This document shows, in pieces, positions 44,854-52,582 of a stretch of 64,000 nt of DNA. The notes beneath the pieces are model-generated. The model saw only the letters and a program-made list of their open reading frames with translations, had not been told where the DNA came from and searched no databases. The stretch covers positions 124,001-188,000 of the forward strand of contig JANLFQ010000003.1 in assembly GCA_024653355.1 (NCBI GenBank), in the 5' to 3' direction. A program made the translations under genes and the position numbers. How positions within the stretch are numbered: position 1 is the stretch's first letter; the number at the start of each line of letters is the position of its first letter. The DNA comes from a candidate division WOR-3 bacterium. GTDB lineage: Bacteria; Hydrothermota; Tepidihabitantia; Tepidihabitantales; Tepidihabitantaceae.

Positions 44854-46557
44854 GTGGTTTTTTTAACGGTTATCGTGATTCTGGGACAGGTGGCACCGGG
44901 GATGAAGGTTGACATCGTCCGGTTTGCCGGCAATAAGAGTTTTTCGCACCGGGTGCTGGTCAACATTGTTCAGGTTAAACCCGGTGCATTGGCAATGGAG
45001 GCGTTACTGGACGAGGATGCGCGCACCCTTGAGGCGTTTTATCGTAATGAAGGTTTTTTTGATGTCCAGGTTGAGAAGGGTCTTGGCGTGGTCGCCCAGA
45101 AGGTGGTTGCAACATTCTATATTCAAGAAGGGGTTAGGGCAAAGGTGGCAGATGTGGTTTTTGAGGGAAACAGGGCGTTTACTGCCGAGAGGTTGAAACG
45201 GGTCTTGAAGTTTGGTGCCCAAGCACCCTTTTCTCTTGCTTCGGTCAAGGCGGGTACCCAGAGTCTGCGCAATTTGTATCTGAACACCGGATATCCTTTT
45301 GTAACGGTTGAGGACAGCTTTGAGCGCCGGGATACATTGGTGTTGGTTAGATATCGTGTTGCGGAGGGACCCCGCTGTTATATAAGGGATGTTCGGGTGC
45401 GAGGTAACAGGTCGGTACGCACGGCAACGATTTTGCAGAGCGTGGAGATAAAGAAAGGCGAGATGTTCTCACGGCGCCGGCTCGAGGAGGCACAACGCCG
45501 GGTTTATGCGATGAAGGTTTTTTCCCGGGTTCTGTTCTATGTGATTCCGGATTCGCTCGCATCGGATAGCGTTGTGGTGCGGTTTGATGTGGTAGAAGGG
45601 GCGCAAAAGGGTATCGCCCTTGGCGTTGGTCTGGAAACGCCGCCCAGTCGGGCGCTCTTTTCGGTTGAATGGGAGCACAACAATGTGATGAATCGCGGGC
45701 AGTGGTTGATTGCCGAGGTTGTTTTTAGCCCGGATTTAAGCAAGAATTACCGGAGCAGTTTTGACCTGACCTGGCGGGTGCCTTATCTGTTTTGGACCCG
45801 GGTTGATTTTCAGAGCCATCCCTTCTTTTACTACGAGCGGTTTGACTCGGCACGGCAGCGTGAGTACGGAATAGAAAATGGTCTGCAAAAGGATATCGCA
45901 CCTCAGTTGCGGCTCGGTCTGTTCAATCGGTTGCGGTTAGTTGCCGATACGAGCCGGGGGATAACCAATTCTCTGGCGCTGAGTTTGATATACGACTCGC
46001 GGGACAACTTTTTTGACCCGCAACGCGGTGTGTATTTCCAGCCCGGTCTTGAAGGCGCGGGTGGTATTTTGCTCGGGGACAATGACTTTGTCCGCGGGGT
46101 GGCGGACATCCGTGTCTATCAGTCACTGGGGCGGGGCTTTGTTTTCGCCGTGCGGGGGTTAGGAGGCAGGGTGATTCCTTATGGCAGGTCAGCCTCGGTA
46201 CCTTATTACGAAGAGTTTTCGCTGGGCGGCAAGAACAATCTGCGGGGTTATCCGGACCGGGCTCTGGGACCGGATACGGCGCGCGGTGGCAGGTATGGAC
46301 CGGTTATTTTGAATGCCAATGTTGAGGTGCGAAGCCCTTATATCCTGCGCTGGGTTGGGGTTGTTGGTTTTATCGATTGGGGTCAGATTGCCGGTCAGAG
46401 GGATTTGAAACTACGGGGATTTGAAGTTGGCGCCGGTTTTGGTTTACGGCTGCGGACGCCGGTGGGCCCGATTCGGCTTGACTGGGGAAAACGTTTGAAA
46501 GGTGCGGCCGCCGGAGATTGGGGCAGAATTTATTTCGGGGTGTTGCATGCGTTTTAA
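44854..46557 (+). CDS. Omp85-family outer-membrane assembly protein (TamA/BamA-like, three POTRA)
   Basis: A 567-residue protein: short signal peptide (about 1-13), three POTRA domains (about 18-87, 90-158 and 163-245, each with the VxGNxxxxxxxL pattern, for example VVFEGNRAFTAERL and VRVRGNRSVRTATIL), then a 16-strand-type beta-barrel ending in an aromatic Phe. The barrel holds FSLGGKNNLRGYPDRALGP, containing the conserved L6 (V/I)RGY/F motif. The number of POTRA domains (BamA has five, TamA three) and the following TamB gene favour a TamA-like role, but a minimal BamA cannot be excluded. The GTG start is 4 nt after the pump gene stop. The end overlaps the TamB gene by 11 nt. Confidence 0.9.
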   Translation: MVFLTVIVILGQVAPGMKVDIVRFAGNKSFSHRVLVNIVQVKPGALAMEALLDEDARTLEAFYRNEGFFDVQVEKGLGVVAQKVVATFYIQEGVRAKVADVVFEGNRAFTAERLKRVLKFGAQAPFSLASVKAGTQSLRNLYLNTGYPFVTVEDSFERRDTLVLVRYRVAEGPRCYIRDVRVRGNRSVRTATILQSVEIKKGEMFSRRRLEEAQRRVYAMKVFSRVLFYVIPDSLASDSVVVRFDVVEGAQKGIALGVGLETPPSRALFSVEWEHNNVMNRGQWLIAEVVFSPDLSKNYRSSFDLTWRVPYLFWTRVDFQSHPFFYYERFDSARQREYGIENGLQKDIAPQLRLGLFNRLRLVADTSRGITNSLALSLIYDSRDNFFDPQRGVYFQPGLEGAGGILLGDNDFVRGVADIRVYQSLGRGFVFAVRGLGGRVIPYGRSASVPYYEEFSLGGKNNLRGYPDRALGPDTARGGRYGPVILNANVEVRSPYILRWVGVVGFIDWGQIAGQRDLKLRGFEVGAGFGLRLRTPVGPIRLDWGKRLKGAAAGDWGRIYFGVLHAF

Positions 46558-49500
46558 GCGGCGTTGGTGGCTCCTGGTGTTCGGATTTGTGATTGGTTTG
46601 CTGGTAGTGGTGGTTTTATTCCGGCAGGAGGTTGGACGGCTGGTGTTGAAAAGGACACTGGCGGCTTTGAGTAAGGGGATTAACGGCGAGATTACTTACG
46701 GTAACATCAGCGGTGATATATTTTCTGCTCCTCAGGTGAGCGATTTAAGGATAGTTTTAAACTCTGATTCAATTCTGATTAAACGGCTCGGGGTACGGTA
46801 CGACATTCTTTCTTTAATACGGGGTAAAATTGTCCTGCGCGATGTTCAACTGGATAGCGTGCGGGCTTACTGCTCCGGGGTCAGGACAGAAGTCGGTGCC
46901 GGGCAACCAATCAAGAGCTGGAGTTTCCCCGATATTACGGTCAGGCAACTGGCAGTGAAGGGCGGTGCGGTTTATATCAAAGACGAGAAACGGATTGATT
47001 CGTTGCGGATAAATCTCCGCCTTCGGGCAAGGAAGTCGGTTGCGGTGCTTAACCTTGACTCGGCGCAATTTTTAATGGTTAAGGAAAGTTTGGCACTCCG
47101 GCATATCGGTGCCCGGGTGGAGTTGACCGGGGATTCATTAAAGATGAGCGAAGTTCAAGCGATGAGCCGGGGTTCAAGGTTTCGCGGTAGTGTGGGGATT
47201 GATTTGAGGTCAAGAGAGGTCACGGCTGAAGTTACCGAGTTGAGTGTCAATCTAACGGAGATTTTGCATATCCCGGGGCGGGTTTGGTTTCAAGGGGAGG
47301 CAGAGGTGGGAGAGAAGAGAAAGGTGGCGGCAGGTCGTTGGGTTGCTGATGGGCTGCTCTGGAGGAGAGTGAACCTGCCAAGGCTGACCGGGGGGTTTAA
47401 TCTTCAGGAGTCAACATTTCAGTTGACGCTTGCCGGTAGTGACCGTGAGATTGGGCGGTTTGCGCTTGATGGGTGGGTTGATTTGCAGCGGTTTGATTTT
47501 ACCGCCTCAATTCAGGTTGACAGTCTGGCGGTGTCCCGTTTGGAGCCTACGCTACCCGATTTTCGGTTATCGGCACAGTTTCAGTCGAGCGGTGTGCTGG
47601 GTTCTCTAAGTTCCTTACTGGGCTATAAGCGAGATTCCAGTCTTACCGATTCAATTAACTTGCTGGTGAAGGGCAAAGTGACCGAATTGGGGATTGATAC
47701 GCTGAATGCGGTTGTTGATTATCGACAGGGCGGTGTGCAGTTACGAAGTTTGACCCTGAGAGGTCCGGTGGGAAACTTTGACTTCGTCGGTGTGGCGCGT
47801 GCCGGGTTGTTGAAGGCGCGGTGTGATATGGAAAATTTTGATTTAAATGTTGCGGGGCGGTTGTTCAATGTTGAACTCACCGGACGTGCGGATGGCGAAC
47901 TGTCGGCTTTCTGGGAAAAAGATTCCTGGGGTTTTTCCGGTGTTGTTTATTTTGATGGATTCCGCTGGAGTAAAGTGGAGATTACCAACGGTCTTATCGC
48001 GGCGGATGTTAATGGCAGTGGTCCGCTGCGGGGAAATTTTGTTGACCGAATGGCGGGCAGATTGGCGCTGGGCGGCGAAGGCATCGTCGTAGCAAATCAG
48101 GAGTGGAATGCCGGACAGCTGGTATGGACCGGACCCGATTTTGAAGTGAGGTTTGATCGGGAGAACGCACGCTGCGGTGCGCTGGGCGAGCTGCATTTTC
48201 AAGGGCGCGCGGTGGTTTGTTCTTTGAATATGCTGGAGTATGCGACCGAAAAGGAGACGCTTGCCCTTCTTGAACCGTGCCGGCTGGTTTTAAGCGATTC
48301 GGTTGTTGACCTGACCGGTGTGAAGTTTGCGGTTGCCGATGGTGAATTAAATCTGAACGCCAAAATTGTTAAGCAGCGGTCACCCTGGTTTGAAATTGGG
48401 TTGCGCCATATCAACATCAGGAAGGTACAGCGGTTGCTGGGTATCAATACCGAGTTGTGGGGGGTGTGTGACATTGATGTCGTCGGTGGTGATTCGGTGT
48501 TTGTCAAGTTTACCGGGGTTGATTTTGGGGTGCCGAGCCTTTCTTTGAATCTGAAACATATTCAGGGGAGTTTGGTTGCCGGGCGCGCGGGTTGCCATTT
48601 AGCAGGGCTGGAGTTCGTGTGCCGCCAGGACACCAGTTATATAAAAGGTGATTTTGACTGGAAATTGAGTCCCGGGTTTCGCTTAACAGGTGCCAGGCTG
48701 GACTTTGCGCTTGTTGACCCGGGAAACTGGATTTTTGAGGTGACCAAGCCTTATGTTGAGGTTACCCAAGGGGTCGTGTTTGGTGCGTTCAAGGTGGAAT
48801 GGCAGCCGGCGCATCTGGTGCTTTCCGGAAGGTCAAGGGTGAGCAGGGGTGTTATCAGGGTACCAAGCGTTGCCACCACAGTAGATGGGGTGGAAGCGGA
48901 GATTACATTTAATGAGGACCGGCTGGTCATTGAGAAGTTGAGCGGAAAGAGTGCCCGGGGTACGGTTACTGCTGAGGGGATTGTGGATTTGAGCCCGAGC
49001 GGCGAAATCGATTCGGTGGCATTTAAGACCCACTTCACCGGCGTATCAGCGGTGCCGATGCCCCAGGTTTATGCCATTGGTAGGGGGGATATCAACATCG
49101 TCTGGCATCAGGGCGAAGAACGGGCGTTTATCTCGGGAAACACGGTGGTGGATGAGGCGCTGGTGGCAATCGGATTTGGTGGTCAGCAGGGTGGTGGCAA
49201 TGGTGCAGCCGGTGTTGATTATGACATTCGGGTCCGCGCGGACCGCGGTGTTTGGCTGCGCAATCGGGAGGCGGACATTGAACTGGCGGTGGATTTGACG
49301 GTCCGTCAGGTGGGTGAGGAGGCGGTGTATATCGGTGAACTTGTTACCCGGCAGGGCAATGTGTACTACCTTGACCACATCCTGCGCGTTACTGAGGGAA
49401 CGCTGACCTTTGACAATGTGAGCCGATTTGACCCAAAACTTGATATCACCGCGGAATTGCCTATTACCCACAACGGTAAAAAGGAACAGCCGGATAAGGT

Positions 49501-49954
49501 CGTGCTCAGTTTAACCGGAACGCTTTCGGAACCATCATTTGTATTTCGTACTGAACCGCCGGTGTGGGACGAAACTCAGATTCTCTCTTATTTGAGTTTG
49601 AATGTCACGATGGACGAAATTTCCGCAATGGAACAGAAGGAAATTTTGAATAGGCTTTTGTCAGAACGGCTCCTCGGTTATTTCCAGACTCAGGTTGCGA
49701 AAAAGGTCAGAGAGTTTGTCAGTCTTGACTATCTCGAACTGGAGACCGGTATTCTTTCGGGACAGGGCGCCCGGGTTACGGTGGGAAAATATGTTGGGCG
49801 TAATCTCTATGTTTCTTACACCCAGAACTTTACCGGTGAATTGAGCCCGGCTTTTTTGATTGAGTACTATCTCAATCGGCGCAACGAACTGATTGCCGAG
49901 CGTTCTTCAGATGGCAGGTACTCTTTGCGCTATCGTTTTAAACTACGTTATTGA
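46547..49954 (+). CDS. tamB: TamB-like translocation/assembly module protein
   Basis: A 1135-residue protein with an N-terminal membrane anchor (about 6-24), a very long beta-rich middle that alternates hydrophobic strands, and a C-terminal DUF490/TamB domain with YIGELVTRQGNVYYLDHILRV-type sequence and LTFDNVSRFDPKLDITAE. Such proteins form a periplasm-spanning groove that moves phospholipids or helps outer-membrane protein insertion. The open frame reaches 46502, but ATG 46547 has GGGGTG upstream and overlaps the Omp85 gene by 11 nt. TamA-like and TamB-like adjacent genes support a shared module. The stop overlaps the priA start (TGATG). Confidence 0.9.
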   Translation: MRFKRRWWLLVFGFVIGLLVVVVLFRQEVGRLVLKRTLAALSKGINGEITYGNISGDIFSAPQVSDLRIVLNSDSILIKRLGVRYDILSLIRGKIVLRDVQLDSVRAYCSGVRTEVGAGQPIKSWSFPDITVRQLAVKGGAVYIKDEKRIDSLRINLRLRARKSVAVLNLDSAQFLMVKESLALRHIGARVELTGDSLKMSEVQAMSRGSRFRGSVGIDLRSREVTAEVTELSVNLTEILHIPGRVWFQGEAEVGEKRKVAAGRWVADGLLWRRVNLPRLTGGFNLQESTFQLTLAGSDREIGRFALDGWVDLQRFDFTASIQVDSLAVSRLEPTLPDFRLSAQFQSSGVLGSLSSLLGYKRDSSLTDSINLLVKGKVTELGIDTLNAVVDYRQGGVQLRSLTLRGPVGNFDFVGVARAGLLKARCDMENFDLNVAGRLFNVELTGRADGELSAFWEKDSWGFSGVVYFDGFRWSKVEITNGLIAADVNGSGPLRGNFVDRMAGRLALGGEGIVVANQEWNAGQLVWTGPDFEVRFDRENARCGALGELHFQGRAVVCSLNMLEYATEKETLALLEPCRLVLSDSVVDLTGVKFAVADGELNLNAKIVKQRSPWFEIGLRHINIRKVQRLLGINTELWGVCDIDVVGGDSVFVKFTGVDFGVPSLSLNLKHIQGSLVAGRAGCHLAGLEFVCRQDTSYIKGDFDWKLSPGFRLTGARLDFALVDPGNWIFEVTKPYVEVTQGVVFGAFKVEWQPAHLVLSGRSRVSRGVIRVPSVATTVDGVEAEITFNEDRLVIEKLSGKSARGTVTAEGIVDLSPSGEIDSVAFKTHFTGVSAVPMPQVYAIGRGDINIVWHQGEERAFISGNTVVDEALVAIGFGGQQGGGNGAAGVDYDIRVRADRGVWLRNREADIELAVDLTVRQVGEEAVYIGELVTRQGNVYYLDHILRVTEGTLTFDNVSRFDPKLDITAELPITHNGKKEQPDKVVLSLTGTLSEPSFVFRTEPPVWDETQILSYLSLNVTMDEISAMEQKEILNRLLSERLLGYFQTQVAKKVREFVSLDYLELETGILSGQGARVTVGKYVGRNLYVSYTQNFTGELSPAFLIEYYLNRRNELIAERSSDGRYSLRYRFKLRY

Positions 49955-51780
49955 TGTTTTGTGATATCGTCATTCCCCGGACGCCGCTCAACGAGTTGAC
50001 CTACGAACTTCCCCGGGATATGGAAGTTGCACCGGGTGACTGCGTACGGGTACCGTTGCGCGGTAAGCAGGTAACGGCGGTGGTTTTCGGATTGAGAAAA
50101 GAGTTGCCCGAGTGCCAGGTGCCGGGCAAACTACAGCAAATTACTAAAATTCTGGCCCGGGGGATGATTTCAAGCGAACTGCTTTGTTTGGTACGGTGGG
50201 TGGCGGACTATTATGTTGCCAGTATGGGTGAAGTGCTCAGTTTTGTTCTGCCGCGCGGGGTTTTTCCGCAAAAGAGAACCGCTCCGTACCCGCAATCGAG
50301 CACCGGGGTTGCTTCGATTTGTTCGGATGGTGGTGCTGATGCAGAAGCCGTTGCGAGACAGAATTTTTCGGTGCTGGTTTGTTCCGAGAGCAAAGAGAAG
50401 GAGGCGGTGGCGGATTTTTTAAAGCGGGCACAGCGGTACGGTTCAGTCGTTTTTTTGATGCCCGAGCGGCGGCTGAAGGAGTGGCGCAACTTAGTGCGCG
50501 ATATATGGGGGGACGGGGTAATTGAGTACCACAACAAACTTTCACCGGCAAATCAGCGCAAGGCGTGGTTAAAAGCGGTAGAGGCAGAACAGGTCGTGGT
50601 TGTTGGTGTGCGCGGGGCGGTTTGGGCGCCAGTTAAGAAACTTGCCGGGGTGGTGATACTCGAAGAGCACTTTTCAGGTTACAAGGAGGAACGGCGACCA
50701 GGTTGGCATGCCCGGGATGTGGCAATTGCCCGGGCAAAGTTTGCCGACTGTCCGGTTTTGCTTACTGACCGGACACCAACCCTCGAGACTATTGCCAACA
50801 TTAAGTCGGGTCGCTTTACCCTTCTGGCACCGCTGGAGTTACCAATAAACCGGGAACGAATTTTTGTAGTTGATATGCGCTTGCATCGCGGGGAGTTGCT
50901 TTCACCGCTCCTGTTAACCGAGTTAAAAAGGGCAGATGAAAAAAATCGGGTTGCGCTTCTTTTTTTAAACAGAAAAGGTGTAAGCCGGTTTGTGGTTTGC
51001 CGGCAGTGCGGTAATGTGTTGCGATGTTCGCGGTGCGGTGTGCCCGGGGTACTTACCGCCGATTCCCGGCTTACCTGTCGGTACTGCGGAACCGATTGTC
51101 CGGCACCCGACAGATGTCCTTCTTGCCAGGGGGTTGATTTTGAGTACCGGGCGCCCGGTGTTGATATGGTGCAAAGGAAGTTAAAGGAGTATGGGTTTTC
51201 TGGTGCCGGAACAAAGATAGTCGTTGGAACCCGGAAACTGCTGAGTCAGGATTTTCCCGAAAACCTTGGGGTCGTCGGCATTGTCAATCTGGACACCGAA
51301 TTCGCCCTGCCCGACTTTCGTGCCCGGGAGCGGGTCTGGCAACTTTTGTGCGATGTTATCAACCGTGTGCAGCGGCAGCGTGCCCGGCTGGTTATTCAAA
51401 CCTATTGTCCCGAAGAGTCGGTGCTGGACTGCTGTTTGCGGGGGGATAGCGCACAGTTTTTCAAAGAGGAGTTACGGCTCCGCAAGGAGGCGGGATTTCC
51501 GCCCTACCGCCGATTGGTTTTGCTGACAATTAAGGGCGCGGATAGGGAGTTGGTGGGCAAACAGTCCGAACAGTTGCGCCGCATTATTGAGGAGCAGGGC
51601 AAAAAGATTCAGCCGCGCCTTGAAATTCTGGGTCCGGTAACAACGATGAAGGCGGGAAGGTTTAATGCCCGGCTTCTGGTTAAAGTCCCGACCACAATAA
51701 TGCCGGGCAAGGTTATCCCCAGAATAAAACTGCAAAACAGCCAGTTACGGATTGAGGTTGACCCGCAGGAAATAGTTTAA
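49954..51780 (+). CDS. priA: PriA-like primosomal protein with degenerate helicase motifs
   Basis: A 608-residue protein (canonical PriA is about 730). The N-terminal DNA-binding domain is recognisable (DIVIPRTPLNELTYELP, then VRVPLRGKQVTAVVFG), as are all eight zinc-binding Cys (CRQCGNVLRCSRC, CRYCG and CPSC, about 348-391) and the C-terminal domain with EELRLRKEAGFPPYRRL. The helicase core is altered: no GxxGxGKT Walker A occurs, the DEEH box reads LEEHFSGYKEE, GSATPS reads LTDRTPTLET, and motif VI QxxGRxGR is DVINRVQR. It is therefore probably ATPase-inactive, as described for actinobacterial PriA-like proteins. It may act as a structural replication-restart factor. ATG 49954 overlaps the tamB stop; TTG 49951 precedes it. 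Confidence 0.85.
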   Translation: MFCDIVIPRTPLNELTYELPRDMEVAPGDCVRVPLRGKQVTAVVFGLRKELPECQVPGKLQQITKILARGMISSELLCLVRWVADYYVASMGEVLSFVLPRGVFPQKRTAPYPQSSTGVASICSDGGADAEAVARQNFSVLVCSESKEKEAVADFLKRAQRYGSVVFLMPERRLKEWRNLVRDIWGDGVIEYHNKLSPANQRKAWLKAVEAEQVVVVGVRGAVWAPVKKLAGVVILEEHFSGYKEERRPGWHARDVAIARAKFADCPVLLTDRTPTLETIANIKSGRFTLLAPLELPINRERIFVVDMRLHRGELLSPLLLTELKRADEKNRVALLFLNRKGVSRFVVCRQCGNVLRCSRCGVPGVLTADSRLTCRYCGTDCPAPDRCPSCQGVDFEYRAPGVDMVQRKLKEYGFSGAGTKIVVGTRKLLSQDFPENLGVVGIVNLDTEFALPDFRARERVWQLLCDVINRVQRQRARLVIQTYCPEESVLDCCLRGDSAQFFKEELRLRKEAGFPPYRRLVLLTIKGADRELVGKQSEQLRRIIEEQGKKIQPRLEILGPVTTMKAGRFNARLLVKVPTTIMPGKVIPRIKLQNSQLRIEVDPQEIV

Positions 51781-51790
51781 CAGTTGGTAA

Positions 51791-52582
51791 TTAACGGTGC
51801 AGATTTCTTTTCAGCCGTAATGCCGGTGCGGCGTTTAATCCCCGGGATTGGTCAAGAGAAACGGTCGTGTCAATGTACATTGTTGCCCGGATAAACGCCT
51901 CCTTTGCACCAATCGAGTCACCGATAAACTCGGCGGCAACGCCGAGGTTGTTCAGGATTGCGCCGGCTAAATCGGCAGGGGATGGTGTTAGAGTAGAAAG
52001 TGAGCGCTCTGCCAAGCGGTAATAGAAAAGGGCGCTTTCGGGATAAGAGTAGTACTGGAAGATGTAACCAGTGTTGAATGCCAGCCAGCCGGTGATACAG
52101 GATGCGGCGCGCCCGCTAAGGGCGTGTGTCAGTTCAAGACCTTTTTGAAATTCAACGAGCGCCGATTGAGGTTGCGCAAGTTCATTGTAGGAGAAACCGA
52201 TATATCCATAAACCACCGCCTGACCTATTGAGTCTTTTCTTAACTCTTTTTTCTGCAAGAGTTTTGTTAACCGGGCGATGGCGTCCCGCAACTCACGATT
52301 TTCAATCATAGTATCGATTGACACCAGCTGCCGGTTCAGTTCCGGGGAAAGGAAGGTGCGAACGGTGGTGTCAATGTACACCTTGCCCAGCATTCGGGTG
52401 TAAGCGCTGAGGTCTACTTTAGTCAATTCGGCTGTTTTTCGTCCGGGCTCACTTTTGGGTGGCTGGGAAAGAATCCGGCTGAGGAACAAAAGGATGACCA
52501 GGACAACAACACCGACCGTAACCCAGAGCCACAGATTGCGCAGCGAGAGCCCGGGGTTTGGCTTTTTGGGCTTTTTCGGCAC
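51791..52582 (-). CDS. Membrane-anchored TPR protein
   Basis: A 263-residue protein with a basic N-terminus (PKKPKKP) and one transmembrane helix (about 16-38), so it is likely anchored with the bulk in the periplasm or cytoplasm (a positive-inside reading favours a periplasmic C-terminus). The rest is helical and TPR-like: GYIGFSYNELAQPQSALVEF (about 127-146), then WLAFNTGYIFQYYSYPESALFYYR and AILNNLGVAAEFIGDSIGAK. No enzymatic motif. The start is GTG at 52582 with a promoter whose -10 is 5 nt upstream, so translation is leaderless. The stop lies 10 nt from the convergent priA stop. A scaffold or assembly role is possible; function unknown. Confidence 0.75.
   Translation of the reverse strand: MPKKPKKPNPGLSLRNLWLWVTVGVVVLVILLFLSRILSQPPKSEPGRKTAELTKVDLSAYTRMLGKVYIDTTVRTFLSPELNRQLVSIDTMIENRELRDAIARLTKLLQKKELRKDSIGQAVVYGYIGFSYNELAQPQSALVEFQKGLELTHALSGRAASCITGWLAFNTGYIFQYYSYPESALFYYRLAERSLSTLTPSPADLAGAILNNLGVAAEFIGDSIGAKEAFIRATMYIDTTVSLDQSRGLNAAPALRLKRNLHR

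Follow-up and report, generated by a model that had tools for sequence, protein, structure and literature searches.

A PriA ortholog with erased ATPase motifs in a candidate division WOR-3 bacterium, and recurrent loss of the PriA motor within its phylum

The window, a stretch of 64,000 nucleotides from a candidate division WOR-3 bacterium (positions 124,001 to 188,000 of contig JANLFQ010000003.1), encodes a genuine PriA ortholog in which the ATPase motifs are erased. The gene is under purifying selection and is not decaying, and we consider it probable that its product is a pseudohelicase that recognizes forks and recruits DnaB, presumably together with DciA, without unwinding DNA. The loss recurs among related bacteria: there is good support for a minimum of four to five Walker A losses within the phylum.

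The protein passed the cut-off of the TIGR00595 equivalog in a profile search (Table 1). The PRK05580 models, which are narrower, matched with a best score of 331.9 bits but remained under their own cut-offs. Membership of the PRK14873 branch was rejected on scores: these NCBIfam models, named "primosome assembly protein PriA," show weaker whole-length similarity to the window PriA (best 128.8 bits), and the protein lies nearer the ordinary PriA branch. The gene coordinates hold as originally predicted. Its ATG overlaps the stop codon of the upstream gene (TGATG), and a TTG at 49951 is merely the mechanical first start of the frame. We take the upstream gene to be TamB-like from its size and its position after a BamA-like gene. 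A comparison of neighbors showed that the TamB-priA junction is kept in f7 and f8 as well as throughout the window's order, and this conservation supports the orthology of PriA. Family f1 is the only one in which relatives of the TPR-like gene, convergent with priA in the window, were found on the downstream side of priA. The possibility of a second, intact PriA, which the original prediction had raised, was examined by searching the 1.88-Mb genome with the TIGR00595 profile; none was found, and the other matches, all weak, were Mfd, UvrB, and RecG.

Table 1. Coordinates of priA, its domains and motifs, and its neighbors (positions in the window; residues counted from ATG 49954)
Feature	Position	Strand	Details
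BamA-like gene, then directly the TamB-like gene, leading into priA	44854-49954	+	
TamB/AsmA-like gene, directly upstream of priA	46502..49954	+	stop overlaps priA start
Putative PriA pseudohelicase gene, 608 aa	49954..51780	+	from ATG to end of stop codon; TIGR00595 288.4 bits, cut-off 230.35
3'-DNA-binding domain (PriA_3primeBD), kept	49966..50253	+	PF17764 E=5e-18, 65.2 bits, cut-off 22.7
Short variable linker in place of E. coli winged-helix and linker region	50254..50380	+	winged helix absent; 23 vs 100 residues; dN/dS 0.70
Former Walker A / motif I position, SESKEKE	50383..50403	+	aa 144-150; P-loop erased
Former DEEH box (motif II), now LEEHFSGYKE	50659..50688	+	LEEH = aa 236-239
Conserved segment after motif II, WHARDVAI, kept	50704..50727	+	E. 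coli YHARDLAV; R and D 100% retained in f1
Altered motif III, RTPTLET	50770..50790	+	E. coli SATPALE
Cysteine-rich region, eight zinc cysteines	50998..51126	+	aa 349, 352, 358, 361, 375, 378, 388, 391
Altered motif V, GTRKLLSQDF	51226..51255	+	E. coli GTQMLAKGHHF
Altered motif VI, DVINRVQR	51352..51375	+	E. coli QVAGRAGR
PriA C-terminal domain (PriA_C), kept	51502..51762	+	PF18074 E=1.3e-6, 29.5 bits, cut-off 26.9
TPR-like gene, convergent with priA	51791-52582	-	

Like E. coli PriA, the window PriA has a 3'-DNA-binding domain (3'BD), two RecA-like lobes, an eight-cysteine region, and a C-terminal domain (CTD); unlike it, E. coli PriA has an active ATPase and a winged helix. All eight zinc-binding cysteines align with the PriA set, in agreement with the original prediction. 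The accompanying claim that both flanking domains persist is correct for the 3'BD and PriA_C, but the winged-helix domain is gone: the region equivalent to E. coli positions 106-205 (winged helix plus linker) is reduced to less than a quarter of its length. Among relatives in the class whose motifs are fully intact, the same region has 27-32 residues in f6/f9, 24 in f7, and 30 in f2; it is equally short in f28 and f29, and it spans 65-175 residues in f11-f27. The stretch from motif IV to motif VI is shorter by about 28 more residues (152 versus 180 aligned, E. coli 421-600), a gap that takes out conserved R/D residues at E. coli 509-513. The protein had been described as about 120 residues shorter than canonical PriA. 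The length is right (E. coli PriA has 732 aa, a difference of 124 residues), but the shortening does not come from helicase loss and is mostly the winged helix, because class members with an intact Walker A also lack that domain. Absence of the winged helix is therefore not diagnostic of activity, and it is an event older than, or separate from, the loss of the motor.

Alignment with E. coli PriA and relatives confirmed that Walker A is absent, that the DEEH box has become LEEH, and that motifs III and VI are changed. The E. coli motif I, GVTGSGKTE, is replaced by CSESKEKE, and motif Ia (LVMVPEIGLTPQ in E. coli) reads VFLMPERRLKE; in the wider alignment of motif III, GSATPALE has become TDRTPTLE, and motif V with its flanking residue reads GTRKLLSQDFP. 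A pattern search found no intact Walker A elsewhere in the protein, GxxxxGK[ST] being absent from the protein and from both remaining forward frames of its gene. The loss of the motifs is not the product of chance or error, because it is common to all 17 genomes read in the window's family, in open frames. We considered whether a weak motor might still operate from a non-canonical ATP site, given that LEEH retains two acidic residues of DEEH, both glutamates, and that much of the remainder of both RecA-like lobes is conserved. Such an activity is very improbable, as GxxxxGK[ST] is missing from all forward frames, motifs Ia, III, V, and VI have all changed together, and the K230R substitution alone abolishes the ATPase of E. 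coli PriA (PMC4504706). The predicted structure of the window PriA has a pLDDT of 48; the best PDB matches of this low-pLDDT model are all PriA, which partly reflects sequence.

The disappearance of every ATPase motif could also be read as decay, with priA a pseudogene or a residual PriA and restart proceeding by another route, and 9 of 120 genomes in the phylum (for example, G042) indeed have no strong PriA match, some of them probably through assembly gaps. Signs of selection largely refute this reading, to which we attach a very slight probability. Compared with the sister species G001, priA has an overall dN/dS of 0.18; by region, the ratio is 0.12 in HD1 (the dead motor lobe), 0.11 in HD2 with the cysteine region, 0.14 in the CTD, and 0.31 in the 3'BD. 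The frame is open across the family, the gene order is conserved, and the zinc cysteines are kept in every motor-less clade: all eight are present in 46/46 motor-less relatives compared, none of which retains the Walker A lysine (the equivalent of E. coli Lys230). Family f1 also keeps fixed some further positions that hardly vary in intact PriA, namely R and D in the HARD segment that follows motif II, PDFR..E in HD2, and, where the CTD begins, R and PP.

There are precedents for PriA without motor activity. Deinococcus radiodurans PriA is a pseudohelicase without ATPase or unwinding activity that binds single-stranded DNA, forks, and DnaB, and recognition with DnaB recruitment in the absence of unwinding has been proposed for that organism (PMC4504706). 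ATPase-dead E. coli PriA (K230 mutants) still assembles primosomes (PMC4504706), and in PriA-PriB restart in vivo in E. coli the ATPase/helicase activity of PriA is dispensable (PMC10175261). Fork contacts of E. coli PriA involve the 3'BD, winged helix, HD1, zinc region, and CTD, and the zinc region pivots upon fork binding (PMC10175261).

We propose that the window PriA cannot bind or hydrolyze ATP in the usual way and that it would mark forks and recruit the replicative helicase DnaB. The nascent lagging strand would not be unwound by PriA, and another enzyme, such as RecG, would expose single-stranded DNA where needed. DciA probably acts together with PriA in recruiting DnaB, since an IstB/DnaC search of the genome found no DnaC-type loader and matched only DnaA, PhoH, RarA, and ClpX; DciA has been proposed to work with PriA at forks (PMC9825169). 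The partners of E. coli PriA are PriB, DnaT, and DnaC. The genome has DnaB, DciA, DnaA, and RecA, as well as RecG, Mfd, and RarA. Judged from sequence, lack of ATPase activity, fork binding, DnaB recruitment, and the roles given to DciA and RecG are the most likely properties of this system.

The same domains would be kept if PriA had given up DnaB loading for a new role, for example as a scaffold that binds forks in recombination or in transcription-replication conflicts. Fork management in this bacterium does differ from that in E. coli, as no PcrA, UvrD, or Rep was found in the genome, where the sole UvrD-superfamily helicase found is AddA-like. We nevertheless consider a change of role unlikely, because the genome search yielded no other PriA and because DnaB binding persists in the pseudohelicase of D. 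radiodurans (PMC4504706). As for the original suggestion that restart can rely on PriA as a loader only, the ATPase motifs are lost, no second PriA was found, and the window PriA is probably still a loader; but that primosome assembly and restart work with an ATPase-dead PriA was known before from K230 mutants of E. coli and had been suggested for D. radiodurans, and so one more case does not itself establish it.

Like D. radiodurans PriA, the window PriA is an ortholog that has lost its catalytic motifs and kept its other domains under selection. In D. radiodurans, Walker A and B are degraded, and the genome is without clear priB or dnaT (PMC4504706). There the Walker A lysine is changed to arginine, whereas the window PriA has lost its P-loop entirely; its motifs III, V, and VI also differ, the winged helix is absent, and the lineage is a different one. 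The loss of activity in D. radiodurans was shown biochemically; for the window PriA it is predicted from sequence. Pseudohelicase PriA is already published as a kind. The precedent that we found lies in Deinococcus-Thermus (PMC4504706) and not, as had been supposed, in actinobacteria: a literature search, outside which most subscription journals lay, found no paper on motif loss in actinobacterial PriA-like proteins, nor any on repeated loss of the PriA motor in one phylum. What is new here is a lineage outside that report, the complete erasure of the P-loop, a winged helix whose absence is independent of the motor, and losses that recur in one phylum beside motor-intact neighbors.

The distribution of Walker A was established by full-length reading of phylum representatives and an HMM census. 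It is absent from f1, f3, f4, f5, f8, f12, one f22 genus, and f31-f35, and present in f2, f6, f7, f9, f11, f13, f15-f21, the other f22 genus, f23, and f25-f29. A PriA tree from which the motif columns were left out requires five changes (bootstrap range 5-6, with the starred branches forcing 4), and in no bootstrap PriA tree does a single change suffice. The pattern likewise needs five changes on the rpoB tree, where parsimony includes one regain, in f2. That regain concerns G018, a single 82%-complete draft genome that belongs to the window's own order and has an intact PriA. If regain of all the motifs is excluded, a manual count from the printed trees gives about six losses on the PriA tree and about seven or eight on the rpoB tree. 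A grouping of f1, f3, f4, and f5 without f2 was rejected on the rpoB tree (p-AU 0.004), and a single clade of f1, f3, f4, f5, and f8 was not rejected on the PriA tree (p-AU 0.098); the rpoB test with f8 added was set aside because f8 is adjacent to f10, a family without a PriA match. Beyond the lower bound given above, Walker A was perhaps lost six to eight times. The original prediction of an apparently independent case is accordingly right in that the losses are separate, but the case is not a single one, as several occurred within the phylum.

In the window's class, strong PcrA/UvrD/Rep matches are mostly lacking in the motor-less families f1, f3, f4, f5, and f8, as in the window's genome (G000), and a strong PcrA/UvrD match is present in f6/f9, whose PriA is intact. 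We rejected co-loss of PcrA as a general explanation, because a strong PcrA match persists in the motor-less f12 (G066), f22-g50, f31, f32, and f34, and f16 lacks one despite its intact PriA.

Three other observations concern PriA across the phylum. In f18-f26 (L066-L072, L075-L079), Walker A and a DEEH-like box are intact, and motif VI is often QxxGRxRK or QxxGRxRT, forms in which another residue takes the place of the second arginine (E. coli R587); this is a possible intermediate state of motor loss. No convincing PriA match was obtained in G042, G117, G097, G035, G039, G045, G052, G076, or G127, although these genomes are 85-97% complete, and they may represent assembly gaps or complete loss. 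Finally, G053 carries a separate 173-aa open frame (G053:C1:2679088-2679483) that resembles only the C-terminal part of PriA, in addition to an intact PriA of full length at another place in the genome.

Descriptions of PriA usually present it as a helicase, while the E. coli mutants and D. radiodurans say that its motor is optional. The interesting part of the present finding is the recurrence of the loss. We see the balance as even for a broader proposal: that the motor was lost separately six to eight times in the phylum, more than once within the window's order around a motor-intact relative, with the zinc region and most of the fork-binding domains retained. On this view, recognition and loading would be what PriA always does, whereas the helicase would be conditionally dispensable, dropped once another condition (loader type, helicase set, or lifestyle) relaxes. 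Natural losses beside motor-intact relatives offer matched comparisons for asking what the motor is for and what has to change before it can be dropped.
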